This document shows positions 1 through 17,860 of a stretch of DNA of 23,308 nt, piece after piece. The notes beneath the pieces are model-generated. The model did not search any database. It worked only from the letters and a program-made list of their open reading frames with translations, and had not been told where the DNA came from. This DNA comes from a virus. Made by a program: the position numbers and the translations under genes. The stretch covers positions 1-23,308 of the IMG/VR virus record IMGVR_UViG_3300042691_031174; one strand, given 5' to 3'. Each line of letters starts with the position of its first letter. The first letter of the stretch is position 1.

Positions 1-2
1 CA

Positions 3-761
3 AAATCACTTTGTAATGGATATTGGAAAGAATCATATGATCCTCAACATCCGTTTTGTAATGATAAATTTACACCTCCAACTGAATTAATTCGCGTTGG
101 AAATTCTTATCGACCACAGAGTTTAACACAAACTCAATTTAATAAATTAAATCTCCAAATCGGTTCAGAATATCAAGGTGGAATATATATTGGTGTTTTT
201 GAACCTGGAAATCCAATGAATCCATTAGGATCTAAATTGTATGGAAATATGAATTTTGGAAATCCACTGGAATATTATGCAGATCAAATTGGTATTGGCG
301 GAACAGACAAAAAGTGGGCGTTGATTGTTTCTTCAAAAATACATAATTTTAAATATCATAATGATGAAGAAAAAATTTATAAAGAAACATCGCTATGGGA
401 TGGTTATTTCAATAAATCAGTTGCGGCAAATTCAAAGTTATATACAACTTTTAGAAATCGTCCAATAGATGGGTTTATAGATTACTACATTCCATCAATT
501 CAAGAATTGCATTTCTATATGAATTATTTGTCAACGAGAGAAAATAATCTTTCAGCAACAGTTATGTCGTCAAGTATATTTTCAACAAAATATATTTCAA
601 ATCAGTCTAACAAAGTCAATATAAATAATTCCATGATGTTATATGGAGTTGTTCTAGAAAAGAAAAATAATATTAATTTTTCTAGAAATCACACTATACT
701 CATCCCAAGTACAAATTTATCAACAGTTTTATTTTTTAGAAGAATTATAATCAATGATTGA
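3..761 (+). CDS. Virion/fibre-like protein with DUF1566-like C-terminus (5' partial)
   Basis: The reading frame is open from base 3, so the gene starts upstream of the window and only the last 252 codons are seen. The in-frame ATG at 216 is internal. A glycine-rich GSEYQGGIYIGVF segment (about residues 53-65 of the fragment) is followed by an IDYYIPSIQELHFYMN segment and a terminal LFFRRI. These resemble the start (YQGGIIFY), middle (WYLPSIDEL) and end (VRRI/FRVIR) of DUF1566/FGE-like modules found in phage fibres and surface proteins. This is motif recall, not a search. Its position before the neck genes suggests a structural or host-contact role. No signal peptide or membrane segment can be judged because the N-terminus is missing. 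Confidence 0.5.
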   Translation, partial: KSLCNGYWKESYDPQHPFCNDKFTPPTELIRVGNSYRPQSLTQTQFNKLNLQIGSEYQGGIYIGVFEPGNPMNPLGSKLYGNMNFGNPLEYYADQIGIGGTDKKWALIVSSKIHNFKYHNDEEKIYKETSLWDGYFNKSVAANSKLYTTFRNRPIDGFIDYYIPSIQELHFYMNYLSTRENNLSATVMSSSIFSTKYISNQSNKVNINNSMMLYGVVLEKKNNINFSRNHTILIPSTNLSTVLFFRRIIIND

Positions 762-785
762 CATTACAATGATTTGTGTTACAGT
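758..785 (+). promoter_or_regulatory. Candidate sigma70-type promoter
   Basis: A perfect -35 hexamer TTGACA (758-763) overlaps the stop codon of the previous gene. A weak -10, TACAGT (780-785, 4 of 6 matches), follows after 16 bases. Predicted initiation near 792 would keep the AAAGG ribosome-binding site at 793-797. The weak -10 makes this tentative. Confidence 0.35.
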
Positions 786-804
786 TTAAATGAAAGGTAT
801 GATT

Positions 805-1329
805 ATGGAAAGTGAAAATATAGAATTTCGAAAAGAAGAACCAAAACAAGATCAGTCCTCTGGTATCAAGAAAAAGTTAAGTATGATGCAAAGTTTTGCA
901 TCAGCAATAACATCTAGAGGTCTTAAAAACGAAAAAACTACAAAACCAATAAAACAACTAAGAGTTCTTTCATGCTTTGGAGATAAACAGCAAGGTGGAG
1001 TATTACCCCCATGTGAACATCTCAAGACAAGCAAAACTGAAGGAAAACATTTTTGTGGAGGTTGTGGGTGTGGTGATCGACCAGGAACTTGGTTGATGTC
1101 TGCAAATGACACATATTCAAAACTAGATTATCCCAGATTGGCATGTCCATTGAATATGCCAGGATTTTCAAATTATGAACCATCAAAACCAGACGAGTCG
1201 ATATCCCCAATCACTCGAAGATATTATATTGAAAACTATCCATATGAAAAATTAGAAGAAATTAAAGTAAATACATTCGACCCACCACAACCACCGCCAC
1301 AAAAACAAGAAGAAACAAAGAAAACTTAA
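805..1329 (+). CDS. Cysteine-rich putative metal-binding protein, unknown function
   Basis: The product is 174 residues. I chose the ATG at 805 over the upstream in-frame ATGs (790, 799) because AAAGG at 793-797 is spaced seven bases from it. The middle carries six cysteines (C57, C70, C84, C87, C89, C114) and histidines H72 and H82, including the cluster CGGCGCG at 84-90. That pattern suggests a zinc or iron-sulfur site, but the ligand set cannot be decided from sequence alone. Flanks are polar: a Lys/Glu-rich N-terminus and a Pro-rich C-terminus (DPPQPPPQ). There is no signal peptide or membrane segment. It sits directly before the neck genes, separated from them by a hairpin and a late promoter. 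I recall similar unnamed proteins in marine T4-like phages but know of no function. Confidence 0.7.
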   Translation: MESENIEFRKEEPKQDQSSGIKKKLSMMQSFASAITSRGLKNEKTTKPIKQLRVLSCFGDKQQGGVLPPCEHLKTSKTEGKHFCGGCGCGDRPGTWLMSANDTYSKLDYPRLACPLNMPGFSNYEPSKPDESISPITRRYYIENYPYEKLEEIKVNTFDPPQPPPQKQEETKKT

Positions 1330-1346
1330 TAAAATAACAAATAAAG

Positions 1347-1376
1347 TCTCCTTATAAATAAAATAAGGAGATTTTT
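1347..1376 (+). promoter_or_regulatory. Hairpin with T-tract enclosing late promoter and gp13 RBS
   Basis: TCTCCTTA (1347-1354) and TAAGGAGA (1364-1371) form a perfect 8-bp stem around a 9-base loop, followed by TTTTTC. It could terminate transcription from the gene upstream. The 3' arm is also the Shine-Dalgarno sequence of the gene starting at 1380, so read-through RNA would have it paired. Confidence 0.6.
1353..1360 (+). promoter_or_regulatory. T4-type late promoter box (gp13)
   Basis: TATAAATA is an exact match to the T4 late-promoter consensus read by gp55. With T4 geometry (box at about -13 to -6) the transcript would begin near 1366, removing the 5' arm of the surrounding hairpin while keeping AGGAG. 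Confidence 0.65.
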
Positions 1377-1379
1377 CTT

Positions 1380-2186
1380 ATGTCAGGGCAAAATCCAAAC
1401 TCAAGACAAACAATAATCGAATATGCGTTACGATCACTTGGCGCACCAGTTGTACAAATAAATGTAGATTGGCAACAATGCGAAGATCGCCTTGATGAAG
1501 CACTGCAATTTTTCTCCGAATATCATTTTGATGGTGTGCAGAGGGTGTATTTTAAATATCAACTAACCCAAAATGATATTAACAACAAATATATTGCAAT
1601 TGAAAATATAACATCTCCAATCGGAGGAGTGGATAGACCAACAGGAACTGACATAGTTTCTGTGATTAAACTGTTCAGATTTGGAAATTTTGCAGGGAAT
1701 AATATGTTTGATATAAAATATCAAATGGCATTGAACGATTATTTTGGAGTAAATCGTGGACTTGGGTCTAGTCAGTCCTTGCCACTGGCAAATTATGATG
1801 CATCAATGCAATATCTTAATTTAATAGAACAATTTTTCTCTCCGGAAAAAACAATAAGTTTTAGTAAAGTGACCAATAGAATATACATTGACAGTGAAAT
1901 ATCAGAAACAAAAGTTGGAGATTACATCATAATAGAGGCATACGCTGTTCTGGATCCAGACGAATATCCAAAGATTTACAATGATAGACTTCTAAAGAAA
2001 TATCTTACTGCACTCATAAAGAAACAATGGGGAGGAAATATGGCAAAATATGATGGTGTTCAACTTCCGGGGGGAATCACATTTAAGGGTGCAGTGATAT
2101 ACCAAGAAGCAGTTAACGAATTGCAATTAATAGAAAACGAATTAAGATCGACCCATGAACTACCAATAGATTTCATGTTAGGATAA
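1380..2186 (+). CDS. 13: Neck protein gp13 (head completion)
   Basis: The product is 268 residues (T4 gp13 is about 309). In T4, gp13 and gp14 form the neck that seals the DNA-filled head and joins it to the tail. The N-terminus RQTIIEYALRSLGAPVVQIN, followed by a CEDRLDEALQFFSEYHFDGVQ stretch, matches my recollection of gp13 from marine T4-like phages. The order gp13-gp14-gp15-gp16-gp17 supports this. The start follows TAAGGAG (1364-1370) at nine bases. Expression is expected late, from the TATAAATA box just upstream. The next gene starts two bases after the stop. The shorter length is normal for the marine group as far as I recall. Confidence 0.9.
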   Translation: MSGQNPNSRQTIIEYALRSLGAPVVQINVDWQQCEDRLDEALQFFSEYHFDGVQRVYFKYQLTQNDINNKYIAIENITSPIGGVDRPTGTDIVSVIKLFRFGNFAGNNMFDIKYQMALNDYFGVNRGLGSSQSLPLANYDASMQYLNLIEQFFSPEKTISFSKVTNRIYIDSEISETKVGDYIIIEAYAVLDPDEYPKIYNDRLLKKYLTALIKKQWGGNMAKYDGVQLPGGITFKGAVIYQEAVNELQLIENELRSTHELPIDFMLG

Positions 2187-2188
2187 AC

Positions 2189-3115
2189 ATGGCAGTAAAC
2201 CCATACTTCAAAGATTATTCTGGAGAACAAAATTTACTTGATGATTTAACAATAGAAACCATCAAAGTGATGGGTCGTGATCTAATATATCTTCCCAGAG
2301 AATACTTAAAAGTAGATCCTATATTTGGTGAAGATCCAAAAAGTTATTTTAAAGATGGTTACATCCTTGAAATGTATGTCAGAGAAACTATGAAGTTCGG
2401 TGGTAATAAAGATATAATGACTAAATTTGGTATCACCATTACAGATAGACTGACTATTGATTTGTCTATAACACGATTTGGTCAGGAAATTACATCAAAG
2501 AATCCGACAATTATAAAACCAAGAGAAGGGGATCTAATTTATTATCCTCCATCTAGATCCATATTTGAAATTAACTTTGTAGAAGACGAAGAACCATTTT
2601 ACCAATTTGGAACTTTAACTACATATACACTTGTATGTGAACTCTTCACATATTCCCATGAGAAAATTGAAACAGGGTTTGAAGAAGTTGATGAGGTATA
2701 TGAACTTCGCAACAGTTATGCTGATATTTTAGGATTAACCGGAAATACAATTTCCGGAATAACAAAATACTACAATGGAGAAGAAGTATATCAATCAACA
2801 GGGTATACTGGTGCTGGAGCAACTTTGGCAAATGCATCAGCAACAGGAACTATTGTTGAATTGATAACAAAAACTACTGGCGTTTCTGATCAAATGTATA
2901 TAACAAATAAATCCGGAACATTTATTGCTGGACAAACTGTTAAAGGAACATTGTCTGGTGCTGAGTATATTCTTCATGGAGTTACTTCCAGTATTGTCAA
3001 CATTGCAAAAGATCCAGTTGATCCAGATCTTGCAACAAATAACGATGCAATAGAGAGAGAAGCATCATACACTATAGAGTTTTCAGCGGATAATCCATTC
3101 TCAGAGAATTGCTAA
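2189..3115 (+). CDS. 14: Neck protein gp14
   Basis: The product is 308 residues, longer than T4 gp14 (about 256). The N-terminal region (NPYFKDYSGEQNLLDDLTIE, then IKVMGRDLIYLPREYL) is typical of gp14, partner of gp13 in the neck. Residues about 200-272 look like an inserted beta-rich module: alternating Gly, Ala, Thr and Val with GTIVELI and SGTFIAGQTVKGTLSGA. Similar sequences recur in marine phage structural proteins. The conserved C-terminal part (about 288-308) follows it. AGGAT just upstream of the ATG may serve as ribosome-binding site. The stop overlaps the next start as TAATG, so translation of gp15 is probably coupled. Confidence 0.88.
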   Translation: MAVNPYFKDYSGEQNLLDDLTIETIKVMGRDLIYLPREYLKVDPIFGEDPKSYFKDGYILEMYVRETMKFGGNKDIMTKFGITITDRLTIDLSITRFGQEITSKNPTIIKPREGDLIYYPPSRSIFEINFVEDEEPFYQFGTLTTYTLVCELFTYSHEKIETGFEEVDEVYELRNSYADILGLTGNTISGITKYYNGEEVYQSTGYTGAGATLANASATGTIVELITKTTGVSDQMYITNKSGTFIAGQTVKGTLSGAEYILHGVTSSIVNIAKDPVDPDLATNNDAIEREASYTIEFSADNPFSENC

Positions 3116-3831
3116 TGTTTTCAATCAATAACACATATTACAACGAATCAATAAGAAAAATGGTAACAGCATTTGGTGCTTTATTCAATTCGATTTATGT
3201 TTTAAGAAAAAATGATTCCAAAGACATAATTGAAAAAATAAGAGTCCCACTGGTTTATGGACCAAAAGAAAAATTCATATACAGAATAAAATCAGAGGCG
3301 CAAATAACCGATAATACACATGTTCAGATAACCCTGCCGATGATTGGTTTCGATATGACGAGTATTTTATATGACACAAATCGCAAATTAAATAGAATGA
3401 ATAAAAGAATAGTGGGAGATAGATCCACATATTCAGAAGTTCCATATAATATTAATTTTGGTCTTTATGTGTTTACTAGAAACATAGATGATAATTTACA
3501 AATCGTTGAACAAATACTTCCTTATTTTTCACCAGAGTTCATGGTTACTATAAATATTGACAACCTATACCCTGCTGTCGATATTCCTATCGTTTTGAAT
3601 AGTGTAGCAATGAACGAAGACTATGAAGGATCTTTCGAAACACGAAGATCAGTGACCAGTCTATTTGACTTTACGATGAAGGGTTATGTATATAACAAAT
3701 TCTGCGAACCAACAACTGGAATCATAAAAAATTCAGAAATCCAACTTGGTATCACAAGTGGAAGTGGTTATACAGCATATATGAATTATGTAAGTGATCA
3801 TGGAGATCCGGTGTATTTAACAATAACATGA
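3115..3831 (+). CDS. 15: Tail terminator / sheath stabiliser gp15
   Basis: The product is 238 residues from the ATG at 3115, which overlaps the gp14 stop as TAATG; a TTG further upstream would add only two residues and is less likely. In T4, gp15 caps the tail tube and sheath and contacts the neck. The run NESIRKMVTAFGALFNSIYV, then KIRVPLVYGPKEKFIYRI and ITLPMIGFDMTSILYD, is characteristic of the family. T4 gp15 is about 272 residues. There is no strong Shine-Dalgarno sequence, consistent with coupling to gp14. The stop is followed by GAGGAT, the ribosome-binding site of gp16. Confidence 0.9.
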   Translation: MFSINNTYYNESIRKMVTAFGALFNSIYVLRKNDSKDIIEKIRVPLVYGPKEKFIYRIKSEAQITDNTHVQITLPMIGFDMTSILYDTNRKLNRMNKRIVGDRSTYSEVPYNINFGLYVFTRNIDDNLQIVEQILPYFSPEFMVTINIDNLYPAVDIPIVLNSVAMNEDYEGSFETRRSVTSLFDFTMKGYVYNKFCEPTTGIIKNSEIQLGITSGSGYTAYMNYVSDHGDPVYLTIT

Positions 3832-3838
3832 GGATATT

Positions 3839-4309
3839 ATGACTGAAGATACTGATAAAAAATTATCAAAGATTCTTGATCTTCCAGAGATAGAAACAAT
3901 CGATGATAAAAAAGTAACCGATATAGTAGAACCAAAATCCATAAAAAGACAAAAAAAAGATCTGGTTAGACAAGATTTTAGTGAAGCAAGAAATAATATG
4001 AAACAGTTGATATCAACTGGATTTGATGCAATTGACGAAATGATGAAAGTTGCAAATGCAAGCGATTCTCCTAGAGCATATGAAGTTGTTTCTATTCTAT
4101 TAAAAACAATGACAGAAATGAATTCTGAAATGATATCTCTACATGAAAAAGCAAATAAAGCGGAACCACAAACAAATAAAAGCGTAAATAATACAACAAA
4201 TAATTCTATATTTGTAGGATCAACAAAGGATCTTCAAAACCTAATAAACCAATCTAGAAGTCAATTAAAATATATAAACAATGAAGAGATGAAGAATGAC
4301 GAAGCATAA
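3839..4309 (+). CDS. 16: Small terminase subunit gp16
   Basis: The product is 156 residues (T4 gp16 about 164). The small terminase forms a ring that recognises phage DNA and regulates the gp17 motor. The identification rests on size, position directly before gp17, and layout: a charged N-terminus, a helical middle (NNMKQLISTGFDAIDEMMKV, EVVSILLKTMTEMNSEMISLHEKA) able to form a coiled-coil oligomer, and an Asn/Thr-rich linker before a short C-terminal tail. GAGGAT lies a few bases before the ATG. The last 14 bases overlap the gp17 start, which suggests coupled synthesis of the two subunits. Confidence 0.85.
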   Translation: MTEDTDKKLSKILDLPEIETIDDKKVTDIVEPKSIKRQKKDLVRQDFSEARNNMKQLISTGFDAIDEMMKVANASDSPRAYEVVSILLKTMTEMNSEMISLHEKANKAEPQTNKSVNNTTNNSIFVGSTKDLQNLINQSRSQLKYINNEEMKNDEA

Positions 4310-6041
4310 AGATGGATATCTTGGAAATCCAAACTTAAAACCAGTTGGTGTTCAACAACAATTTACCCCAGAACAAGTTCAAGAATATATAAAATGTGCT
4401 ACCGACCCAATATATTTTATTAAGAATTATGTAAAAATTGTATCAGTGGACCAGGGATTAGTCTCTTTTGATATGTACGATTATCAAAAAGAACTTATAA
4501 AGACTTTGCACAACAATAGATTCGTTATTGGTAAATTGCCAAGACAGACTGGTAAAACTACTACAGTTGGTTCATATTTGCTTCATTATGTTCTTTTTAA
4601 TCAAAATGTAAATATTGCAATATTAGCAAATAAACAAGCAACCGCCATAGAAATTCTAGGAAGAATTAAAATGGCGTTTGAATATTTGCCAAAATGGTTG
4701 CAGCAAGGTGTTGTAGAATGGAATAAAGGTTCGATTGTGCTGGAGAATGGTTCAAGGATTCTTGCTGCTGCAACATCTTCATCTGCTATTCGTGGTGGAT
4801 CTTTTAATATAATTCTTTTAGACGAGTTTGCACACATTCCAATTCAAATTGCTGAAGAATTTTTCTCATCAGTATATCCAACAATCACATCTGGTCAATC
4901 TACAAAAATGTTTATCATATCCACACCAAATGGATTGAACATGTTTTATTATTATTGGAAAGGTGCTGTAAATAAACAAAATGGATATGTTCCAGTAGAA
5001 GTTCATTGGAGTCAAGTTCCTCTATATCCTGGTGGTCCACTAAGAGGTGAAAAGTGGAAACAGGAAATGATAAGTAAAACATCAGAAAAGCAATTTCAAA
5101 GCGAATTTGAATGTGATTTTGTAGGTTCATCCAATACATTGATATCATCTTCAAAACTCCACACTATGGTTTTTAATAAACCAATATTGAGGACAAAGGA
5201 AGGACTAACAATCCATGAAGAACCAATACGCGAAGACGAAGAGAAAAAAACACAAGATCACATTTATTTTATTACTGTTGATACTGCGAGAGGTCAAGGC
5301 AAAGATTATAGTGCGTTTGTAGTTATGGATGTGACTCAATTCCCATATAAAGTTGTGGCACAGTATAGAAATAATACAGTATCTCCGTTGTTGTATCCAT
5401 CTATTATCAAAACAGTTGCAAAAAAATACAACAATGCGTATGTAATGATAGAAATAAATGATATTGGTTCACAGGTTGCTGATATTCTTCATACGGATCT
5501 AGAATATGAAAATATTGTAAAAACAAGTTTCCTGGGAAGAAAAGGTCAAACAATAACAGAAGGATTTGGTGGAGCAAAGCAGAATCATCTAGGACTCAAG
5601 ACATCCGTGACAACTAAAAAAGTGGGTTGTGCTGTTTTGAAGAATCTAATAGAAGAGGATAAATTAATAGTTGAAGATTTTGATATTATAAATGAATTGA
5701 CAACCTTTGTTGCCAAAAAAAATAGTTATGAAGCAGATGATGGTCACAATGATGATTTAATAACATGTCTTATAATTTTTTCGTGGTGTACAAGACAAGA
5801 TTTTTTTAAAAATCTGACAGATATGGATGTTCGCCTTGCAATGTATTCGAGAGAGATAGAAAAAATAGAAGATGATTTACTCCCATTTGGATACTATGAT
5901 GATGGTTCTGGAGAAGAACCAATTCAAAATGAAGAAGAAGAATGGTCCGGAGAGTCAGGAGATAGATGGTTAATACGGGAAAGAAAAAATATTAAATATA
6001 TTTTTAGACCCAATAATAGCACTTTCTACGAACAATCTTGA
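4296..6041 (+). CDS. 17: Large terminase subunit gp17 (packaging ATPase/nuclease)
   Basis: The product is 581 residues (T4 gp17 about 610). It is the motor that drives DNA into the prohead and cuts the concatemer. The ATPase domain has Walker A LPRQTGKTTT (81-90, K87), Walker B LLDEFAH (174-180, D176/E177) and coupling motif ISTPNG (208-213). The RNase H-fold nuclease domain has VDTARGQGKDYSA (328-340, acidic D329), an acidic E386 in VMIEIND and GHNDDLIT (483-490), so three acidic metal-ligand positions are present. A Glu/Asp-rich C-terminal tail (about 530-560) follows. The ATG at 4296 overlaps the end of gp16. All catalytic motifs look intact. Confidence 0.96.
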   Translation: MTKHKDGYLGNPNLKPVGVQQQFTPEQVQEYIKCATDPIYFIKNYVKIVSVDQGLVSFDMYDYQKELIKTLHNNRFVIGKLPRQTGKTTTVGSYLLHYVLFNQNVNIAILANKQATAIEILGRIKMAFEYLPKWLQQGVVEWNKGSIVLENGSRILAAATSSSAIRGGSFNIILLDEFAHIPIQIAEEFFSSVYPTITSGQSTKMFIISTPNGLNMFYYYWKGAVNKQNGYVPVEVHWSQVPLYPGGPLRGEKWKQEMISKTSEKQFQSEFECDFVGSSNTLISSSKLHTMVFNKPILRTKEGLTIHEEPIREDEEKKTQDHIYFITVDTARGQGKDYSAFVVMDVTQFPYKVVAQYRNNTVSPLLYPSIIKTVAKKYNNAYVMIEINDIGSQVADILHTDLEYENIVKTSFLGRKGQTITEGFGGAKQNHLGLKTSVTTKKVGCAVLKNLIEEDKLIVEDFDIINELTTFVAKKNSYEADDGHNDDLITCLIIFSWCTRQDFFKNLTDMDVRLAMYSREIEKIEDDLLPFGYYDDGSGEEPIQNEEEEWSGESGDRWLIRERKNIKYIFRPNNSTFYEQS

Positions 6042-6088
6042 AATATTTAAATTAATATATATTCAATAGGTATTACAAAGGAGAGACA

Positions 6089-7423
6089 ATGGCTAGACCA
6101 AATGTAACATTTAAACTAAACGATTTATCTGTGATCGGACCAGCTCAAGAAGCAACTGAGCAACCATCATTTAAAATGAATGCAGCAATGATGTCTGAAA
6201 ATGATCATTTAATTGCACTTGCAAGAGGAACTGAACCATCTGCTGGATTTATGTATATTCCAAATAGCAATGATTTGTATGCAAGATTAAATCAAATGAT
6301 TGTTAATTTAGCAGGAGGAGAAACTTTCCTAGCAGGAGCAACTTTATATTCACAAGGTTCCTGTGCAGCATCATATATCAATGGAACATATCCTGGTGAT
6401 GTATTTGATGGTGTAACGACAGCAATTAGTGGAATAACTTTTGGTGGAGGTAAAACAGCATTCAGAGAAGAATTCTGGGCATTGAATAATTATCTACAAT
6501 ACGGATCTCCTGTATTTGTTGGATTCAATGTCTCTTCATCAATTGCTACCGCAAGAAATTATGAATTTGTTGGTGGATTAGAAATTTTCAAGGGTGCATT
6601 GCTATATGATGTTATTTTCCAAGGACGATCAAGTGATGCAGCAATAAATCTAATTAAAGAAATTACCGATGCAAAGAAGAATAATGATCTTCCTGTATTT
6701 GCAATATTAAATACTCCATCAAAACCATCTGCCACCGCAGGATCAATTGATGATAATGCTGTTGGAGTTACTTTTGCTGATTTCCATTATGCTACCGTTT
6801 ATGGAGAAAAAATACATCTAGGAGCAAATGGTGCATCTGAAACATTAATCACTACTATTCTTGCCCCAGATATCGCAGGATGCTTTGCTAGAACAGATCG
6901 TGATTTCTATCCATGGTATTCTCCAGCAGGAACTAATAGAGGTAGAATTCTTGGAGTAACTCGTCTTAAGCATAATTTAAATGCCGCATTACAAGATGCA
7001 CTATATGATGCAAAAATTAATCCAGTAGTTACTTTCCCAGGAGAAGGAACCTTCCTTTTCGGAGATAAAACTACATATTCACAAACATCTACTCTTTCTA
7101 GAATGAATGTCGCTAGATTGTTTATCAATCTCAAGAAGCAACTTGGAGCAGTTGCAAGAAAAATTCTATTCAACACTAACGATGTTTCCACTAGAGCAGC
7201 ATTTGTTACAACTGCAACTGAAATCTTGACTCAAATTAAAGCACAAAATGGTCTTTCGGATTTTAAAGTAATTTGCGATGAATCTAACAATCCAATTACT
7301 GTAATTGAAGCAAATGGATTTGTTGCTGAAATTTTACTCAAACCGCTAACTTCTATTAACTTTATTACTCTAACACTAACCAATGTTGATTTAGAGACTA
7401 ATTTAGGTACTACTGAACAATAA
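6089..7423 (+). CDS. 18: Tail sheath protein gp18 (compact form)
   Basis: The product is 444 residues, much shorter than T4 gp18 (about 659). The sheath contracts to push the tube through the host envelope. The conserved C-terminal core is clear: DFYPWYSPAG (272-281), RGRILGVTRLKHNLN, PVVTFPGEGTFLFGDKT and LSRMNVARLFINLKKQLG. The N-terminus (ARPNVTFKLNDLSVIGPAQ) is also sheath-like. What appears missing is much of the exposed, variable protrusion region between them. Both ends are intact and there is no frameshift, so this looks like a naturally small sheath. A strong AAAGGAGAG (6077-6085) precedes the ATG. I found no clear late-promoter box in the AT-rich 47-base leader. Confidence 0.92.
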   Translation: MARPNVTFKLNDLSVIGPAQEATEQPSFKMNAAMMSENDHLIALARGTEPSAGFMYIPNSNDLYARLNQMIVNLAGGETFLAGATLYSQGSCAASYINGTYPGDVFDGVTTAISGITFGGGKTAFREEFWALNNYLQYGSPVFVGFNVSSSIATARNYEFVGGLEIFKGALLYDVIFQGRSSDAAINLIKEITDAKKNNDLPVFAILNTPSKPSATAGSIDDNAVGVTFADFHYATVYGEKIHLGANGASETLITTILAPDIAGCFARTDRDFYPWYSPAGTNRGRILGVTRLKHNLNAALQDALYDAKINPVVTFPGEGTFLFGDKTTYSQTSTLSRMNVARLFINLKKQLGAVARKILFNTNDVSTRAAFVTTATEILTQIKAQNGLSDFKVICDESNNPITVIEANGFVAEILLKPLTSINFITLTLTNVDLETNLGTTEQ

Positions 7424-7478
7424 TATTAGAAGATTAACAACTATTTTTGAGTTAAGAGTAAATTGAGTAATAAGACAG

Positions 7479-7486
7479 AATAAATA
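7479..7486 (+). promoter_or_regulatory. Late promoter variant before gp19
   Basis: AATAAATA differs from the TATAAATA consensus only at the first base and lies in the 80-base gp18-gp19 gap. Predicted initiation near 7492 leaves most of the AGAGG ribosome-binding site (7491-7495). One-mismatch boxes are common in AT-rich DNA, so confidence is low. Confidence 0.35.
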
Positions 7487-7503
7487 ATTAAGAGGTAAAA
7501 CAC

Positions 7504-8076
7504 ATGCCACAAATTCAACCAAATACAATTACAACTTTTAGAAACAACTTTAGAGGAGTTCGATCAAATCGTTTCATTGTTCAACCAGACTGGCCAACCG
7601 GAATTCCTGGTCTTCAAAATGCTGTAAATGATTTAAGAGAAACTTCTATTTACATCAAAGCAGCAGATATTCCAGAAGCAAGCATCGGAGTTATTACTGT
7701 TCCTTGGATGGGTAGAGCAATCAAATATTCTGGTGAAAGAACCTATGTTGATTGGTCTATTCAAATTTATGAATCCAATAAACAACAAAGCGATCTTCGC
7801 AGATTGTTTGAAATTTGGTTAGATGCAATGGACACCAGAGAAACACATAACATCAACTACAGTGTCACTGCTAGTTGGTCTGTTTGGTATAATGACATTG
7901 TTCAAGGACAAACTAGAAATAATCCTCAAGGATTTACCAGAGGCATTAAATTGAAGAATTGCTTCCCAATCAATGTTGGTACTCTTCAAATGGATTACGA
8001 CTTGTCTGACTCATTTGCAGTATTCCCAGTTACACTTGCGTTCGATTATTGGGAACCACTTGGCGAACTTCAATAA
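7504..8076 (+). CDS. 19: Tail tube protein gp19
   Basis: The product is 190 residues (T4 gp19 about 163). It polymerises into the inner tail tube inside the sheath. Evidence is the position between sheath and portal genes and a family-like sequence: an N-terminal NNFRGVRSNRFIVQ strand, IYIKAADIPEASIGVITVPWMGRAIKYSGER, then YVDWSIQIYESN and a C-terminal FAVFPVTLAFDYWEPLGE. The alternation of strands and the IPEA/VPWMGR motif fit the gp19/gp54 tube fold. AGAGGT lies seven bases before the ATG. It needs high expression. The neighbouring gp18 and this gene are relatively rich in Gly and Ala. Confidence 0.92.
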   Translation: MPQIQPNTITTFRNNFRGVRSNRFIVQPDWPTGIPGLQNAVNDLRETSIYIKAADIPEASIGVITVPWMGRAIKYSGERTYVDWSIQIYESNKQQSDLRRLFEIWLDAMDTRETHNINYSVTASWSVWYNDIVQGQTRNNPQGFTRGIKLKNCFPINVGTLQMDYDLSDSFAVFPVTLAFDYWEPLGELQ

Positions 8077-8114
8077 TTGTAGTTTGTCTAAAAAATATAA
8101 AAAGGTGAATTTTT

Positions 8115-9677
8115 ATGGGATTAAGAGATTTATTTGGATTTTCATTTAAAAAAGATCCAATGGACATGGATGTAGGGGAGGGCCTCTCAGGGGGCCCTCC
8201 CTCTACCATATCATTCGTAGCACCAGATAATTCTGATGGAACAAATATCCTCGAAACCGGAGGATTTATGAGTTCTGTATATGATTTTGGTGGATCATTT
8301 GTTGATGAAAATTCATTAATCAATCAATATCGGTCAATGTCTCTTTACCCAGAAGTTGACATGGCAATAGAAGATATAATAACAGAATCAATTGTTTTTG
8401 ATTCGCATGGTGAATCTATAAAATTAAATTTAGATTCTGTGAATTTATCTGATAATATCAAATCAAAAGTATTATCCGAGTTTGATACTATTCTCAAAAT
8501 GTTGGATTTTAAAAATAAAGGTTATGAGATATTTAGACGATGGTATATTGAAAGTAAATTATACTATCAACTAATTATTGATACAGAAAATCCAGAAAGA
8601 GGAATAGTTGAATTAAGATCTATAGATCCAACAAAGATACGAAAAGTAAGAAAAGTAGAAAAAGAAATAAAAAATATAAATGGAATGCAAGTTCCATTGA
8701 TTAAAAAAATAGATGAACATTTTGTTTATACAGATTTAGAAGTAAATTCTATTACAACGACATCAGCATCTGGAATAAGAATCAGTCCGGACTCTATAAC
8801 ATATTGCAATTCTGGGTATATAGATCAAACAACAAAAAAAGTAGTAGGGTATCTCCACAAGGCAATAAGACCATTAAATATGCTCCGCCAGATTGAAGAT
8901 GCTGTTGTAATTTATCGAATATCAAGAGCACCAGAGAGAAGAATATTTTATGTTGATGTTGGTAATTTACCAAAACAGAAAGCAGAACAATATCTCAAAG
9001 ATTTGATGAATCGATACAGAAATAAACTCGTATACGATTCTGGAACTGGAGAAATTAAAGATACAAGAAATCACATGTCCATGTTGGAGGATTTTTGGTT
9101 ACCAAGAAGAGAAGGTGGAAGAGGAACTGAAATTTCAACACTACCTGGTGGTCAAAATCTTGGAGAAATGGAAGATGTTGAATACCTACTGAGAAAATTA
9201 TATAGATCTTTGAATGTTCCATTAACAAGAATGGAAGTTCAAACTGGATTTAATCTTGGCAGAAGCAGTGAAATTACCAGAGATGAGGTCAAATTCTATA
9301 AATTTATAGAAAGATTGAGAAACAAATTTTCATTCTTGTTCCTTGATATTTTAAAGAAACAGTGCATATTGAAAGGAATAATGACCGTTGATGATTGGAA
9401 TTCAATATATCATGATATTAATTTTCAATTTACAAAAGATTCATATTTTACCGAATTAAAAGAAAATGAAATACTGAGAGAAAAGGTAGAAATGTTGACG
9501 GTTTTGGCAACATATAGTGGCACTTTATTTTCCAACAAATATATTCGAAAGAATATTTTAAAACAAACCGATGAAGAAATTGCACAAATGGACAAGGAAA
9601 TGGAACAAGAAAGAAGTAAACAAATAATGCAACAAGTGCAGATGCAACAAATGGGATTAGAACCAGAACAACAATAA
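8115..9677 (+). CDS. 20: Portal vertex protein gp20
   Basis: The product is 520 residues, close to T4 gp20 (about 524). The dodecameric portal nucleates prohead assembly and is the channel for DNA. Characteristic stretches are YPEVDMAIEDIITESIV, FDTILKMLDFKNKGYEIFRRWY, LRSIDPTKIRKVRKVEK, IYRISRAPERRIFYVDVGNLPK, DFWLPRREGGRGTEISTLPG and VPLTRMEVQTGFNLGRSSEITRDEVKF. The C-terminus is Gln-rich (QQVQMQQMGLEPEQQ). AGGTG sits eight bases before the ATG. Oddly, residues about 17-32 (MDVGEGLSGGPPST) are encoded by a GC-rich block that forms a strong hairpin, out of character with the rest of the gene. Immediately after the stop lies a TATAAATA late-promoter box. Confidence 0.96.
   Translation: MGLRDLFGFSFKKDPMDMDVGEGLSGGPPSTISFVAPDNSDGTNILETGGFMSSVYDFGGSFVDENSLINQYRSMSLYPEVDMAIEDIITESIVFDSHGESIKLNLDSVNLSDNIKSKVLSEFDTILKMLDFKNKGYEIFRRWYIESKLYYQLIIDTENPERGIVELRSIDPTKIRKVRKVEKEIKNINGMQVPLIKKIDEHFVYTDLEVNSITTTSASGIRISPDSITYCNSGYIDQTTKKVVGYLHKAIRPLNMLRQIEDAVVIYRISRAPERRIFYVDVGNLPKQKAEQYLKDLMNRYRNKLVYDSGTGEIKDTRNHMSMLEDFWLPRREGGRGTEISTLPGGQNLGEMEDVEYLLRKLYRSLNVPLTRMEVQTGFNLGRSSEITRDEVKFYKFIERLRNKFSFLFLDILKKQCILKGIMTVDDWNSIYHDINFQFTKDSYFTELKENEILREKVEMLTVLATYSGTLFSNKYIRKNILKQTDEEIAQMDKEMEQERSKQIMQQVQMQQMGLEPEQQ
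8172..8206 (+). repeat. GC-rich inverted repeat inside gp20
   Basis: GGAGGGCC (8177-8184) pairs perfectly with GGCCCTCC (8193-8200) around an 8-base loop. The stem can extend outward with GTAGG (8172-8176) against CTCTAC (8201-8206), leaving one bulged T. The block is almost entirely G and C in strongly AT-rich surroundings and lies about 60 bases into the portal gene. Role unknown. Confidence 0.8.
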
Positions 9678-9685
9678 TATAAATA
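9678..9685 (+). promoter_or_regulatory. T4-type late promoter box (prohead core gene)
   Basis: Exact TATAAATA directly after the gp20 stop codon. Predicted initiation near 9691 gives a short leader that still contains TAGGAGA (9694-9700) before the ATG at 9706. It likely drives the core, protease and following head genes. Confidence 0.65.
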
Positions 9686-9705
9686 TTAATTAGTAGGAGA
9701 ATAAA

Positions 9706-10332
9706 ATGCAAAATACCAAAAACATCATAAACAATATTGTTGAGAATAATCTAGTTGATGCTAAAAGACAGATAAAAGAACAATTACTCAATAAACTGGG
9801 TACAATTCTTGAATCAAAAATAGAAGAAATTGCTCCAAGCATGATTGCAATTTCTGAATCGGAAGACGAAAGAAAAAAAGATGTAACTAGGAAAATGGCA
9901 ATGGGCGACGAAAACGGTGAAGATGGTGAAGAAAAAATGAAACCATCCCAAAAATCAAAAAAACAAAAAAATAAAAATATAAAAGACGATGTACAGCATG
10001 ATGATGTTGAATTAGAAGATGAATTTGATGATGACTTTGAACAATTTGTCGATCAAATTCATGAAATAGTCGAACAAATAGAAAATGAAATAGGAAAAGA
10101 ATTATCTAAAGAAGAAATTATTGAAATAAGCAATGATTATATAAATTTCTTAAATGAAGAAACTGAAGAAGATTCTGAAGAAGATTCTGAAGATGAAGAT
10201 GAAGATGAAGACATGATCGAAGAAGAAAAAGATTTACCTGGAAATCAAGAAGCAATAGATGTTGCTCAACCAAAAGGAAAGATAACAGGAGCAGATTTTA
10301 AAAAACTTCGTTCGATGAGAGGGAAAAAATAA
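9706..10332 (+). CDS. Acidic prohead core protein candidate (gp67/gp68-like position)
   Basis: The product is 208 residues and extremely charged. An N-terminal helical stretch (NTKNIINNIVENNLVDAKRQ, IKEQLLNKLGTILESKIEEI) is followed by a Lys-rich linker, an acidic helix (DEFDDDFEQFVDQIHEIVEQ), a Glu/Asp run (about 154-175) and a basic end, KITGADFKKLRSMRGKK. T4 places the small prohead core genes 67 and 68 exactly here, between portal and protease. The acidic, low-complexity character fits a scaffold core protein removed by gp21. Sequence similarity to gp67 cannot be judged by eye, so I give no symbol. TAGGAGA precedes the ATG. The stop is joined to the gp21 start as TAAATG. Confidence 0.6.
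   Translation: MQNTKNIINNIVENNLVDAKRQIKEQLLNKLGTILESKIEEIAPSMIAISESEDERKKDVTRKMAMGDENGEDGEEKMKPSQKSKKQKNKNIKDDVQHDDVELEDEFDDDFEQFVDQIHEIVEQIENEIGKELSKEEIIEISNDYINFLNEETEEDSEEDSEDEDEDEDMIEEEKDLPGNQEAIDVAQPKGKITGADFKKLRSMRGKK
10165..10212 (+). repeat. Tandem GAAGAAGATTCT / GAAGAT repeat
   Basis: Two exact 12-base units GAAGAAGATTCT (10165-10176, 10177-10188) are followed by three GAAGAT and one GAAGAC. They encode the acidic Glu/Asp/Ser run in the core-protein candidate. All units are multiples of three, so copy-number change would keep the frame. Confidence 0.85.
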
Positions 10333-10977
10333 ATGAAACTAATCACCGAAACCGTAGAAGACATCCAAACAATAGTTGAATCCAATGAAGCAGGATCTAA
10401 AAACTATTATATTAAAGGTGTAATGATGGAAGCGGGTGTGGTGAATAGAAATAAAAGAATGTATAATGAAAATGTTCTCAAGAGAGAATGTAAGAGATAT
10501 ATTACAGAATATGTGAAGAAAAATCGTGCTCTTGGAGAATTAAATCACCCATCTGGACCCACTGTAAATCTTGATCGTGTCTCTCACATGATTGTTGATT
10601 TAAGCGAAAGTGGAAATCAAATACACGGAAAAGCAAAAATAATAGACACACCAATGGGTAAAATTGTAAAAAGTTTAATTGATGAAGGTGCTCAACTTGG
10701 TGTTTCATCCAGAGGAATGGGTTCATTAAAATCACAAGGTGGGGTTAACATTGTTCAAGATGACTTTAATCTTGCAGCAATTGATATTGTTGCTGATCCA
10801 TCTGCTCCTAATGCATTTGTTGATGGCATATTAGAAGGAAAAGAATGGATCTGGAATAATGGTTTATTAGTTGAAAAAGAAATAAGCAATTATGAAAAAC
10901 AACTAAAAAGAACCTCAGTAAAAAAACTAGAAGAAACAGCAATTAAATTGTTTTCTGATTTTTTAAAGAGAATTTGA
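10333..10977 (+). CDS. 21: Prohead maturation protease gp21
   Basis: The product is 214 residues (T4 gp21 about 212). This serine protease of the herpes-assemblin-like fold digests the scaffold and trims gp23 before packaging. Motifs: LGELNHPSGPTVNLDRVSHM with candidate catalytic H72, GVSSRGMGSL with candidate catalytic serine at S125 or S126, and DIVADPSAPNAFVDGI (151-166). A possible self-cleavage site ILE|G (166-169) follows, matching the I/L-X-E rule known for T4 gp21. The ATG immediately follows the previous stop, so translation is probably coupled. The stop overlaps the next start as TGATG. Confidence 0.94.
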   Translation: MKLITETVEDIQTIVESNEAGSKNYYIKGVMMEAGVVNRNKRMYNENVLKRECKRYITEYVKKNRALGELNHPSGPTVNLDRVSHMIVDLSESGNQIHGKAKIIDTPMGKIVKSLIDEGAQLGVSSRGMGSLKSQGGVNIVQDDFNLAAIDIVADPSAPNAFVDGILEGKEWIWNNGLLVEKEISNYEKQLKRTSVKKLEETAIKLFSDFLKRI

Positions 10978-11873
10978 TGACCGAAAAAACTACAACTAGA
11001 GTTATTTTAAAAGAAGTAATAGGAACGCTAGCAGCAGTTGGTGCTGCTGGTCTGGTTGCTGGTGCTGTTCGTGGAGCAATTAAATCTAAAAATTTAAAAC
11101 AATATGTTACACCAGGTACTAGACCAGGAAAACCAGCAGGGATGTCTGCAAGAATATTTCAAAATGTAAGAAATGCACTTTCTGCTTATGGAGAAAGAGC
11201 ACAGGAAGGATGGTTGGAGAAAAAAGCAGAGATGGATACTCAAATTCATTCTCAAATTGCAGCACAATATAATTTAAAACCAACAGAATATGCTAGAGTA
11301 ACAGCAGAACATGCAAGAAAAAATAAAGCATTGAGTGTGATAAATGATCCAAAAACCAGACAAATGTTGTTAAGTAAGGGTGTAATCAACATTTCTAGAG
11401 GTGGGCAACTATCCGGTCTTGAAAATATAGACATTGAGGATTTGCCAAATATAGAACAGGCAGTAAAGCAAGGCAATCCAGCAGCATATACTGCAAGAAC
11501 CCCAAAGCAAACATCCAGATCAATTCAAGATGTTATCGATAAACCAACAACACTTGAAGTTCTTGATCAAACTAATCCAACAGCAAGACAATTTAGAGAA
11601 AAAATGACAAAAGAATTTATAACTCCAGCAAGTCAGGCAGCAACGGAAAAAGCAGTTAGGGACATAGAAACATCAAAAAAGGCAAGAGCAGCAATGCAAT
11701 CAGCAATTTCACAAGATAAACAAAATCAAATGAATAGATTAAATAGCAGAATACTTGCATTGCGTCCAAGACCTGGTTCTAATTTAACAACATCTCAAAA
11801 AACAAAAAGAAGAGTTGCGTCAGCACTTTTAGGAGCAAAACAAGTAATTTCTTCTTTAGATTTTTGGAATTAA
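10977..11873 (+). CDS. Unrecognised Ala-rich basic protein between gp21 and gp22
   Basis: The product is 298 residues from the ATG at 10977, which overlaps the gp21 stop; AAAGAG lies upstream. I do not recognise it. A single hydrophobic Gly/Ala segment (VIGTLAAVGAAGLVAGAV, about residues 14-31) could be a membrane or amphipathic segment. The rest is soluble, helical and rich in Ala, Lys, Arg and Gln, with several R/K-rich stretches (for example TSQKTKRRVASALLGAK near the end). In T4, gp21 is followed directly by gp22, so this is an insertion in the prohead cluster. Its company suggests a head-internal or core component, perhaps one injected with DNA, but that is inference. A late promoter separates it from gp22. 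Confidence 0.75.
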   Translation: MTEKTTTRVILKEVIGTLAAVGAAGLVAGAVRGAIKSKNLKQYVTPGTRPGKPAGMSARIFQNVRNALSAYGERAQEGWLEKKAEMDTQIHSQIAAQYNLKPTEYARVTAEHARKNKALSVINDPKTRQMLLSKGVINISRGGQLSGLENIDIEDLPNIEQAVKQGNPAAYTARTPKQTSRSIQDVIDKPTTLEVLDQTNPTARQFREKMTKEFITPASQAATEKAVRDIETSKKARAAMQSAISQDKQNQMNRLNSRILALRPRPGSNLTTSQKTKRRVASALLGAKQVISSLDFWN

Positions 11874-11900
11874 GTATTTGAAAAAATAATTTATTCTACA

Positions 11901-11908
11901 TATAAATA
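11901..11908 (+). promoter_or_regulatory. T4-type late promoter box (gp22)
   Basis: Exact TATAAATA in the 54-base gap before gp22. Predicted initiation near 11914 leaves a short leader containing TTGGAGA (11916-11922), well placed for the ATG at 11928. This is the cleanest late promoter in the window. Confidence 0.7.
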
Positions 11909-11927
11909 GACAAAATTGGAGAATTTT

Positions 11928-12971
11928 ATGGCAAACGAACAAATGTACTCAGACCCTAAATTATATGATGATGGAAGTGGAAGAGGTGCTGTAATTAATC
12001 AACCAGTAGCATCTCCAGATGCGGCAGTAAAAAATATGCAAACCAGAAGACCAGGGGGAGGAGCATATGTTCAACTTCCTGGTGCACAACAAGCAAACCC
12101 AGCAATGAATGCTGAAGATAAAGAAGAAACAGAGGAAACAAATATCTCTGATACTGATTATCTTGCAAGTTTGTTTGATGGTGAAAACTTAAGTGAAGAA
12201 TTCATGAAAAAAACTGCAACTATATTTGAAGCAGCAATTCATGAAAAAGTTTCAATTATAGAAAAAACTATACTAGAAGCAGCAAAAGAATTAATAGAAG
12301 AACAAGTTAAGGAAAAGACAGAACACTTAACTGAGCAACTTGATAATTATCTTTCATATGTAATCAATGAATGGATGGAAGAAAATAAAGTTGCTGTAGA
12401 ACGAGGTCTTCGCACAGAAATAGCAGAACATTTTATGGTTGGTCTTAAAGAATTGCTAGATGAGACTTTCATTGATGTTCCAGAAGACAAATACAATGTT
12501 CTTGATGAACTTGCATCTGCAAATGAAGAATTACAAGAACAACTAAACACTGAAATAAAGAAAAATATCGAATTATCAAATGAAATAACTGCTAGACTTT
12601 GCGCAGAAGCATTTTTTGATATTTCGACTGGATTAACTGATACTGAAGTAGAGAAACTTGCAACTTTGGCAGAAGGAATAGAATTTGCAAGTGTAGATCA
12701 ATACAAAGAAAAAGTTAAACTACTAAAAGAATCATATTTTAACAAGAATTCAAATCAGCATATAAATCAACAACAAAATCTTGTTGAAGAAACAACTAAT
12801 CCTGGAATTTCAAAAGAAATAAATGATCCAGGTATGTTAAATCTTGTAAATGCAATTGGAAGACTTAACAAGAATAGACAAAAACCAGCACAGCAAATTT
12901 CTGAAAATAGCAACGCTGGAAAATTGTTAAATATGATTAACCCAAACATCGCAACAGATCAGTATATCTGA
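11928..12971 (+). CDS. 22: Prohead scaffold protein gp22
   Basis: The product is 347 residues (T4 gp22 about 269). It is the main internal scaffold on which gp23 assembles and which gp21 degrades. I chose the ATG at 11928 because TTGGAGA lies five bases upstream; a TTG at 11916 is inside that site. The N-terminal 80 residues are polar and Gly/Pro-rich. Residues about 85-235 are helical and acidic (EFMKKTATIFEAAIHEK, NELASANEELQEQLN-like coiled coil), ending in the family-typical LCAEAFFDISTGLTDTEVEK and LAEGIEFASVDQYKEKV. Candidate protease sites of the I/L-X-E type include IFE|A and ILE|A. The Gln/Asn-rich C-terminus makes it longer than T4 gp22. Confidence 0.9.
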   Translation: MANEQMYSDPKLYDDGSGRGAVINQPVASPDAAVKNMQTRRPGGGAYVQLPGAQQANPAMNAEDKEETEETNISDTDYLASLFDGENLSEEFMKKTATIFEAAIHEKVSIIEKTILEAAKELIEEQVKEKTEHLTEQLDNYLSYVINEWMEENKVAVERGLRTEIAEHFMVGLKELLDETFIDVPEDKYNVLDELASANEELQEQLNTEIKKNIELSNEITARLCAEAFFDISTGLTDTEVEKLATLAEGIEFASVDQYKEKVKLLKESYFNKNSNQHINQQQNLVEETTNPGISKEINDPGMLNLVNAIGRLNKNRQKPAQQISENSNAGKLLNMINPNIATDQYI

Positions 12972-12984
12972 AAAAATTAAAATT

Positions 12985-12992
12985 GATAAATA
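12985..12992 (+). promoter_or_regulatory. Late promoter variant before gp23
   Basis: GATAAATA differs from TATAAATA at one base, in the 45-base gap before the capsid gene. Predicted initiation near 12998 gives a leader containing TAAGGAGAG (13004-13012), the strongest ribosome-binding site in the window. Position and the need for heavy gp23 expression support it. Confidence 0.5.
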
Positions 12993-13016
12993 TTAAAAGA
13001 CTTTAAGGAGAGAAAA

Positions 13017-14432
13017 ATGGATTTTAACGGTACAACCCCATATGACACACTCGTAGAAAAATGGTCCCCAGTATTAGATCACACTGAAATGGACCCAATC
13101 AATGATCTTCACAAGAAAAGAGTAACCGCTGTTCTTCTTGAAAATCAAGTAAGAGCAATGCAAGAAGATAGAATGCAACAAAATCTTTTCGAAGCAGCAC
13201 CAACCATGAATATGGGTGGATCAAGTTTTGTAAGCGGACAACTTGCAAATGCAGGAAATTTTGCTGGATATGATCCAATTCTAATTTCACTTGTTCGTCG
13301 TGCAATGCCAAATATTGTTGCATATGATATTGCTGGCGTTCAACCAATGAGTGCACCAACTGGTCTTATCTTTGCAATGCGCGCTAAGTATAACAATATT
13401 AATTCCACCGAAGAAGCATTGTTTGACGAAGCATGGCCAAAGTTCTCTGGTGCATCTGGCGCAGCAGTAAATACCGTTGAAGCAATTGGTCCAACTGGTT
13501 TACTATCTGGACACACTCTCGGTGTAGCACCAATTAACGAATCAGGTACTCGTACTAATCTTTTCTCGGATTTCCGTGGTATGCTTACTAGCACCGCAGA
13601 AAAACTAGGAGATGGTAGCAATTACTTCCGTGAAATGGCATTCAGCATTGAGCGTATTGCTGTACAAGCAAGATCACGCGCTCTCAAGGCAGAATACACA
13701 ACTGAACTTGCACAAGATCTCAAGGCAGTTCACGGTCTTGATGCTGAGTCAGAACTTGCAAATATTCTCTCAGTTGAAATTATGAACGAAATCAACCGCG
13801 AAATTCTTCGTGCAATGTACACCGTTGCTAAGACTGGTGCACAAAACACTGATCTTGCCACTTCTGGTGTATATGATCTAGTTGCTGATTCTGACGGTCG
13901 TTGGTCAGCAGAACGCTTCCGTGGACTTATGTTCCAAATTGAACGAGAAGCAAATCAAATTGCTAAAGATTCTCGCAGAGGTCGTGGTAATTTCATTCTT
14001 TGCAGCGCAGATGTCGCATCAGCACTTGCAATGGGTGGATTCCTTAATCTCTCACCAGCACTCAATGTTCAAATGAATGTTGATGACACTGGTAATGTTT
14101 TTGCTGGAGTTCTAAATGGCAAGTACAAAGTTTTCATCGATCCATTTATTCGTAACAATGTAAACTTTGTTACCGTTGGTTATAAGGGAACTTCACCTTA
14201 TGACGCTGGTATGTTCTACTGCCCATATGTTCCTCTACAAATGGTTCGTGCAGTTGGACAAGATACATTCCAACCAAAGATTGGATTTAAGACTCGCTAC
14301 GGTCTAGTCGCAAATCCATTCGCTAAGGGTCGTGATGCAATCACTGTAGATACAGATGGATTAGAAGCAAATTCTAACTCATATTATCGCCTCTTTGCCG
14401 TTAAGAACCTTCACGGCAATACTGGTAACTGA
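13017..14432 (+). CDS. 23: Major capsid protein gp23
   Basis: The product is 471 residues (T4 gp23 about 521), an HK97-fold capsid subunit. Recognisable stretches are LISLVRRAMPNIVAYDIAGV, QPMSAPTGLIFAMRAKYN, a MAFSIERIAVQARSRALKAE helix, NREILRAMYTVA, GRGNFILCSADVASALAMGG and KIGFKTRYGLVANPF. A predicted gp21 cleavage site NLFE|AAPTM falls after E59, comparable to T4 cleavage after residue 65. TAAGGAGAG sits just upstream. Codon use differs from the neighbours: arginine is mostly CGT/CGC and C-ending codons are frequent, whereas flanking genes rely on AGA. I take this as selection for high expression. A strong terminator follows 23 bases after the stop. Confidence 0.97.
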   Translation: MDFNGTTPYDTLVEKWSPVLDHTEMDPINDLHKKRVTAVLLENQVRAMQEDRMQQNLFEAAPTMNMGGSSFVSGQLANAGNFAGYDPILISLVRRAMPNIVAYDIAGVQPMSAPTGLIFAMRAKYNNINSTEEALFDEAWPKFSGASGAAVNTVEAIGPTGLLSGHTLGVAPINESGTRTNLFSDFRGMLTSTAEKLGDGSNYFREMAFSIERIAVQARSRALKAEYTTELAQDLKAVHGLDAESELANILSVEIMNEINREILRAMYTVAKTGAQNTDLATSGVYDLVADSDGRWSAERFRGLMFQIEREANQIAKDSRRGRGNFILCSADVASALAMGGFLNLSPALNVQMNVDDTGNVFAGVLNGKYKVFIDPFIRNNVNFVTVGYKGTSPYDAGMFYCPYVPLQMVRAVGQDTFQPKIGFKTRYGLVANPFAKGRDAITVDTDGLEANSNSYYRLFAVKNLHGNTGN

Positions 14433-14455
14433 TCAGTCTAGAATAAAGTTATAGG

Positions 14456-14485
14456 AACCCACGGGGAAACCCGTGGGTTTTCTTT
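14456..14485 (+). terminator. Intrinsic terminator after gp23
   Basis: AACCCACGGG (14456-14465) and CCCGTGGGTT (14470-14479) form a perfect 10-bp stem closed by a GAAA tetraloop, followed by a T-rich tract TTCTTTT. This is a textbook rho-independent terminator ending the capsid transcript. Confidence 0.93.
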
Positions 14486-14493
14486 TATAAATA
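14486..14493 (+). promoter_or_regulatory. T4-type late promoter box (gp3)
   Basis: Exact TATAAATA that begins at the end of the terminator T-tract. Only five bases separate it from the ATG at 14499. With T4 spacing, initiation would fall at or next to the A of that ATG. Confidence 0.65.
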
Positions 14494-14498
14494 CTTAC

Positions 14499-15083
14499 AT
14501 GCCAGAGTCAAATTTTCAGACATATCAAGATATAATTGATAAACTTGGTCCAAACACTCCTGGTAGTTTATATACTGTAAATCCAACTCAACCAAACAAT
14601 ACAAATTTTTTAACAAATAATAAATTTAAATTTGTAATTAGTAGATGTCCAACTGTCACTTATTTTTGTCAAAGAGCAAATATTCCATCTTTCAGTTTTG
14701 GCACATCAATTCAGTCACAACCAGGTGGAATTGCAATTAAAAGACCAGGAACAGCGTATAACTACGAAGATCTACAAATAAGTTTTATTATAAATGAAGA
14801 TCTAACAAATTGGTTAGAGATATACGAATGGATTAAAAAATTAGGAATATCATATGATAGCACAGTTGAAGTGATAGATGATATGCAGATGGTTGCCACT
14901 GGATTAATGTTAGTAACGGATAGCAAATATAAACCAATTGTCGCAGTAAGGTATATGAATATGTTTCCTACTTTTTTAGGCGGAATAGATTTTGATTCTG
15001 CATTACCAGATACAGATGCTATAATAACAACAGCAACATTCTCATACACACACTACGAAATAGAAATATTAAAAAATCCATAA
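14499..15083 (+). CDS. 3: gp3-like tail completion / tail-tube-family protein
   Basis: The product is 194 residues (T4 gp3 about 176). In marine T4-like phages, gene 3 lies between gp23 and uvsY, exactly here; gp3 terminates and stabilises the tail tube. The sequence looks like the tube/terminator beta-sandwich: NNKFKFVISRCPTVTYFCQR, ANIPSFSFGTSIQSQ, LQISFIINEDLTNWLEIYEW and a late FSYTHYEIEILKN strand. These also resemble gp19/gp54-type proteins, so a tube-initiator role is the main alternative. There is no Shine-Dalgarno sequence before the ATG; the upstream bases are the terminator tail and a late-promoter box, so the mRNA may be leaderless. Confidence 0.7.
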   Translation: MPESNFQTYQDIIDKLGPNTPGSLYTVNPTQPNNTNFLTNNKFKFVISRCPTVTYFCQRANIPSFSFGTSIQSQPGGIAIKRPGTAYNYEDLQISFIINEDLTNWLEIYEWIKKLGISYDSTVEVIDDMQMVATGLMLVTDSKYKPIVAVRYMNMFPTFLGGIDFDSALPDTDAIITTATFSYTHYEIEILKNP

Positions 15084-15101
15084 CCAATAAAAATTATTAT
15101 T

Positions 15102-17709: not shown

Positions 17710-17796
17710 CTTAATATTATAATATTAGTTTTCTTCTTTATTACCACACAAAGATTATACACATACTGACGAATTCGTGTCAAGAGTACACACATG

Positions 17797-17813: not shown

Positions 17814-17823
17814 TTATAATCAC

Positions 17824-17851: not shown

Positions 17852-17860
17852 TTGGTCAAC

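Follow-up and report, generated by a model that had tools for sequence, protein, structure and literature searches.

Introduction

Several genes of bacteriophage T4 carry an RNA stem that hides the start of translation, the known precedents being e, soc, 49 and the gene for I-TevI (PMC3014915, PMC2988022). As the reviews stress, the T4 genes with stems of this kind are late genes that lie inside early or middle transcripts (PMC2988022, PMC3014915). In gene e the Shine-Dalgarno sequence (SD) and/or the AUG is hidden in read-through RNA, the late promoter core TATAAATA lies within the segment that forms the 5′ strand, and RNA made late lacks this strand (PMC3014915). Similarly, the SD and/or AUG of soc and gene 49 are sequestered on longer transcripts (PMC3014915). 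For the T4 genes I-TevI, I-TevII, I-TevIII and segB, and for mobE of phage Aeh1, the ribosome binding site is sequestered on RNA started upstream and a late (or middle) promoter is positioned such that later RNA escapes (PMC2988022). Masking hairpins that contain a late promoter were described for a few T4 genes, whose products would do harm or be of no use early in infection.

Here we describe a stem of this type in front of gp13, one of the core genes for virion assembly. The stem occurs in a widespread lineage of uncultured T4-like phages and is clearly under selection. The original prediction pointed to e and soc as precedents, and the principle is indeed known from T4, while the gene, the conservation and the existence of two exchangeable structures appear to be new. 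A search of a collection of open-access papers brought up no description of a masking hairpin for gene 13. The locus differs from gene e in that the latter encodes a lysis protein (lysozyme) rather than a neck protein and that the T4 read-through RNA is early. Furthermore, repression of gene e was measured to be 100-fold, whereas repression of gp13 is predicted from sequence, and no U-tract is mentioned for e. The I-Tev, segB and mobE cases concern homing endonuclease genes in early or middle transcripts, whereas gp13 is a core virion gene that follows apparent tail genes; soc and gene 49 are likewise other genes than gp13. If the interpretation given below is correct, T4-like phages also use stems to choose which late transcript makes the neck protein, and the leader would be a compact 35-base promoter/ribosome binding site part whose output is set by the RNA start site.

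Organization of the gp13 leader

The window, by which we mean the entire 23.3-kb stretch of DNA that was analyzed, is a genome fragment of an uncultured T4-like phage. On the basis of family matches, sequence and position it contains gp13 (starting at 1380), gp14, gp15, terminase genes and gp18 to gp23, as well as UvsY, UvsW, gp55, gp46/47 and gp45. The gp13 gene (1380-2186, + strand) encodes a head-tail adaptor of the Ad2 type, that is a neck protein (phrog_211, E = 1.2e-36), and gp55 (17852-18424, + strand; phrog_234, E = 1e-56) is a T4-type late sigma factor that would recognize the late promoter discussed here. Upstream of gp13 lies a short gene for a Cys-rich protein of unassigned function (790-1329, + strand), which gave no match in Pfam or PHROGs. 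A counterpart of this gene is present immediately before gp13 in both large relatives, G001 (156.7 kb) and G002.

Positions 1343-1375 of the + strand read AAAGTCTCCTTAT AAATAAA ATAAGGAGATTTT and can form a stem of 13 pairs, including one G-U pair, with a loop of 7 bases. The 5′ arm (AAAGTCTCCTTAT) covers 1343-1355, the loop (AAATAAA) 1356-1362 and the 3′ arm (ATAAGGAGATTTT) 1363-1375; within the stem, 1347-1355 and 1363-1371 form nine contiguous Watson-Crick pairs. The minimum free energy of the segment is −13.9 kcal/mol as compared to −5.6 kcal/mol for shuffled sequences (z = −4.14), and none of 200 shuffles was as stable. The core stem has only three G-C pairs and a folding energy of −9.6 kcal/mol. 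The SD of gp13, AAGGAG (1365-1370), is located in the 3′ arm, nine bases before the ATG at 1380, and a T-tract (TTTTT, 1372-1376) which may be an element of an intrinsic terminator follows the stem and partly lies within it. The T4-type late promoter core TATAAATA occupies 1353-1360 and overlaps part of the loop and, in the 5′ arm, the three uppermost pairs. A perfect 8-bp stem with the late promoter in its loop, hiding the gp13 ribosome binding site, had originally been proposed; the stem is confirmed and the hiding of the site is supported, but the stem is slightly longer, and the loop describes the position of the promoter only approximately. Searching Rfam gave no match at gathering score anywhere in the window. 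The predicted fold, together with the covariation described below, characterizes the structure as a hairpin that would sequester the ribosome binding site, in the sense of a stable stem that pairs the SD and/or the start codon.

In T4 late promoters, TATAAATA spans positions −13 to −6 and transcription starts at the sixth base past the core. By this rule the +1 of the gp13 promoter is predicted at 1366, and late RNA would begin with AGGAGAUUUUUCUUAUG. The same core at a comparable distance occurs in nearly all gp13 relatives, and in 26 of 40 relatives that share the form of the window the predicted +1 is the base immediately preceding GGAG, while in 8 it is the first G. Late RNA with its +1 at GGAG would have the SD at its beginning and would contain neither the loop nor any part of the 5′ arm. 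The sequence thus supports the proposal that the hairpin contains a late promoter from which RNA without the 5′ arm would be made, with 1366 as the predicted 5′ end.

This arrangement suggests that translation of gp13 is probably switched by the choice of promoter. RNA reading through from upstream would contain both arms, fold at 1343-1375 and bury the gp13 SD, leading to poor translation. The polymerase directed by gp55 would start RNA at about 1366, leaving out the 5′ arm, and produce a late RNA with AGGAG at its very 5′ end that would be translated. In this way gp13 expression would be coupled to the late promoter of the gene itself, and the stem would insulate it from transcripts of the upstream operon. 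In the window the stem and U-tract may also terminate part of the read-through RNA.

Two forms of the predicted masking stem

For comparison, a tree of 155 gp13 proteins was built with FastTree; the midpoint root was used for drawing only and the labels were derived from simple rules. The tree contains two neighboring clades with different leaders. According to the original prediction, homologues lacking the paired arms would speak against the hairpin. The SD-masking stem is retained in 38 of the 41 gp13 genes of the window's clade, and in 39 of 41 members of the sister clade, which are without the SD stem, a different masking stem takes its place: the promoter (GCCATAAAT) pairs with the start codon (ATTTATGGC).

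The pairing in the sister clade is between (U/G)GCCAUAAAU and AUUUAUGGC(A/C), with folding z-scores of −3.9 and −4.2. The outermost pair occurs as U-A, G-C or A-U and covaries with the last base of codon 2, which reads GCA, GCC or GCU and encodes alanine in each case. Covariation is weaker than in the window's form: a single pair contributes almost all of it, and breaks are frequent among the inner A-U pairs. Part of this stem is coding sequence, and a U-tract is absent. Masking of the translation start, as predicted from the folds, is therefore the feature that both clades have in common. In L056/L220 and L063/L219 (L056 and L063 are contigs of L220 and L219) the partner arm of the start codon is shifted to a position upstream of the promoter and a pairing of 9-10 bp is kept. 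The sequence NATAAATA was reported as the late promoter of marine T4-like phages (PMC2984593), and this consensus covers CATAAATA of the second form.

As a negative control we used the marine clade around Pelagibacter phage Mosig, in which gp13 has a late promoter and usually an ATGGC start. In this clade 71 of 78 genes are without a stem, and GCCAT was found in only 1 of the 56 marine gp13 genes that combine ATGGC with a late promoter. Moreover, GCCAT at the promoter did not occur in any of the listed non-gp13 late genes starting with ATGGC, a count from which near-duplicate gp13 copies among the rows marked "other" were excluded. The idea that the start-codon stem is a by-product of Met-Ala starts was rejected on these grounds.

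For the SD form, the calculated mean unpairedness of the start region is 0.19 when the RNA reads through and increases to 0.48 when it starts at the late promoter; the corresponding values of the start-codon form are 0.31 and 0.63. Unpairedness also increases in the outgroup without stem (from 0.48 to 0.73), indicating that part of the calculated rise is generic.

Outside gp13, a resemblance to the sister form was noticed at G001:70866 (L327) and G002:63783 (L335), where an ATAAATA promoter can pair with the start codon over 7-8 bp; one of these genes is a probable UvsY.

The T4 gene 13 orthologue also carries a hairpin just upstream (GGGGCC-GCAA-GGCCCC; L157). However, there is no TATAAATA within the 90 bases upstream and the stem ends before the SD, and therefore the device is absent there. 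The gp13 leaders of T4, Cr30, phiN3, P-TIM40, DSL-LC03 and Melnitz-3 have no late-promoter core near the start, which makes them uninformative about the switch. In the gp13 leader of Stenotrophomonas phage Ps15 (L155) a late promoter lies inside the hairpin GCGATA-AATAC-TATCGC, of which the 3′ arm is not a ribosome binding site.

Possible roles in insulation and timing

The switch could serve as an insulator within the late program, where gp13 would be silent on late RNA of the upstream operon and be translated only from its own promoter. The same logic would have been rebuilt or swapped via two unrelated stems, one masking the SD with possible termination and the other masking the start codon with the promoter as antisense arm. 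We regard this use of the switch as a serious possibility, though somewhat short of probable. In G001 and G002, gp13 is preceded on the same strand by genes for collagen-like proteins and further proteins that resemble tail or baseplate components; these calls are based on repeats and position, and those proteins that were tested gave no family match. The gene adjoining gp13 can itself carry a late promoter. From these two observations we infer that the read-through RNA may be largely late. Insulation from an upstream late operon would thus suit the gene order better than a block that is imposed early and released late.

Such an early block with late release had been the function originally proposed. 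It corresponds to a strict temporal switch, a special case of the promoter-dependent switch in which early or middle RNA entering gp13 must stay untranslated until the late phase. This would match the situation of T4 genes e and I-TevI (PMC3014915, PMC2988022), and the late promoter is embedded as expected. Nevertheless we consider strict temporal control rather doubtful: the proposal finds no support in the upstream genes of G001 and G002, which look late, nor in the neighboring gene that can own a late promoter. Upstream of gp13 no convincing early promoter was detected, and sigma-70-like sites occur at chance level.

In the window the stop codon of the upstream gene is 13 bases before the stem, and in relatives the median distance to the arm is 10-13 bases. 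With this gap a terminating ribosome might reach only the base of the stem.

Possible role in termination

The combination of a stem and a U-tract in the window has the appearance of an intrinsic terminator, with a weak G-C content. By number of pairs the segment 1343-1375 is the longest terminator-like match in positions 1-20000, with T5 and three G-C pairs. It is conceivable that the hairpin is mainly a terminator of the upstream operon and that the SD is in the 3′ arm merely as a result of packing terminator, promoter and ribosome binding site into 30 bases. The T-tract is conserved: the spacer between SD and ATG contains a TTTT run in 40 of 43 relatives of the window's form as compared to 6 of 133 other genes with GGAG at the same loci, and the extension of the stem has A in its 5′ strand and U in its 3′ strand. 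In addition, the same hairpin occurs in L101 (4221-4265), L103 (9905-9950), L146 (− strand) and L148 (− strand), where it is followed by a U-tract or U-rich tail and, further downstream, by a second TATAAATA; at these loci it looks like a terminator before a separate late promoter. A distinct terminator immediately ahead of a late promoter also occurs elsewhere in the window, at 14454-14493 after gp23, where a strong GC-rich stem (12 pairs, 7 of them G-C) is directly followed by the promoter; this junction contrasts with the overlapping one at gp13.

Termination as the main role nevertheless seems unlikely to us. Apart from the three G-C pairs of the core stem, L102/L137 have the first-form stem without a U-tract, and the sister clade keeps the masking with a stem that ends in coding sequence and lacks a U-tract. 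Furthermore, the 3′ arm contains the SD at a working distance in all relatives of the window's form. Some termination in this form is plausible in view of the sequence, and the two roles, termination and masking, may coexist.

Compensatory changes and control searches

Masking of the start by base pairing predicts that changes in one arm are compensated in the other, and compensatory changes in related phages had been named in the original prediction as a check. In an alignment of 33 distinct sequences of the window's form they were found at six stem pairs, with 24 cells altered on both sides. Pairing was maintained in 95.3% of the stem cells as compared to 86.9% after shuffling, and for each covariation measure at most 1 of 500 shuffles (0 to 1) was as high. 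When the register was slid, pairing dropped to only 44-61% and the covariation score was also far lower. The pair beside UCUCC occurs as A-U, C-G or U-A and the pair above CC as U-A or G-C. As would be expected of an SD, GGAG is invariant (33 of 33), and its partner CUCC is retained alongside. L029 has a much longer stem in which other sequence separates the same elements (−29.1 kcal/mol, z = −7.8). A clear stem is absent in a few members (L038, L044/L045, L039-L042). According to these patterns masking is maintained in the relatives through compensating mutations, and the switch is therefore probably real.

An inverted repeat centered on a promoter is also what would be expected of an operator, that is a DNA site for a dimeric protein that controls the late promoter. 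That reading is very improbable: three Watson-Crick pair types at one position fit base pairing rather than a fixed protein site, and the sister clade has a wholly different stem; the operator was rejected on these grounds.

The core TATAAATA by itself is hardly enriched in the window (7 sites versus 3.9 expected). When 2.9 million viral contigs of IMG/VR were searched for exact matches to the pattern TCTCCTTATAAATA-N2-8-AAGGAGA, 73 contigs were returned, and in 68 of these the next gene is a gp13 relative, with identities from 87% down to about 35%. Among the late-promoter-like sites that precede genes at the first 150 loci, stems of ≥7 bp were present at 66 of 76 gp13 late promoters as compared to 1 of 40 other late-promoter genes. 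In G001, which was read as overlapping pieces, the gp13 stem is the longest of its kind with 12 bp, the runner-up having 8. The IMG/VR loci include near-duplicates; distinct sequences were used for covariation, the start-codon-form alignment, the tree and the +1 counts. Start codons were picked by rule. A hairpin arising by chance, or as a side effect of the consensus sequences for late promoters and SDs in an AT-rich genome where TATAAATA is frequent, is refuted by the shuffles, the covariation and these gene controls and by an outgroup that has the same promoter and start and is mostly stemless, leaving this explanation a negligible probability.

Other observations

Close to the contig end, at 23267-23299, there is a perfect 14-bp inverted repeat, CCATGTCGCTGAAG-TCAAC-CTTCAGCGACATGG, within the apparent start of gp44. 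Its G+C content is unusual, and the repeat may be real or may be an end effect of the assembly.

At 14486-14499 the window reads TATAAATA-CTTAC-ATG. The T4 rule places the late +1 on the A of this start codon, which belongs to a second tail-tube-like gene, and the late mRNA of this gene may thus be leaderless. A promoter-ATG spacing of 12-14 bases recurs in the relatives, where the spacings show a small peak at 12-13 and a main peak at 22-33, with the caveat that a reversed control pattern also yields a few short spacings. Several of the short-spaced late-promoter genes encode proteins with MKxFxQYLxE-like N-termini (L332:688; L330, G001:131551, − strand; L331, G001:144414 and 144709; L332, G002:1163 and 4374). 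These N-termini presumably resemble the T4 capsid-targeting sequence of internal proteins, and the products may be packaged proteins.
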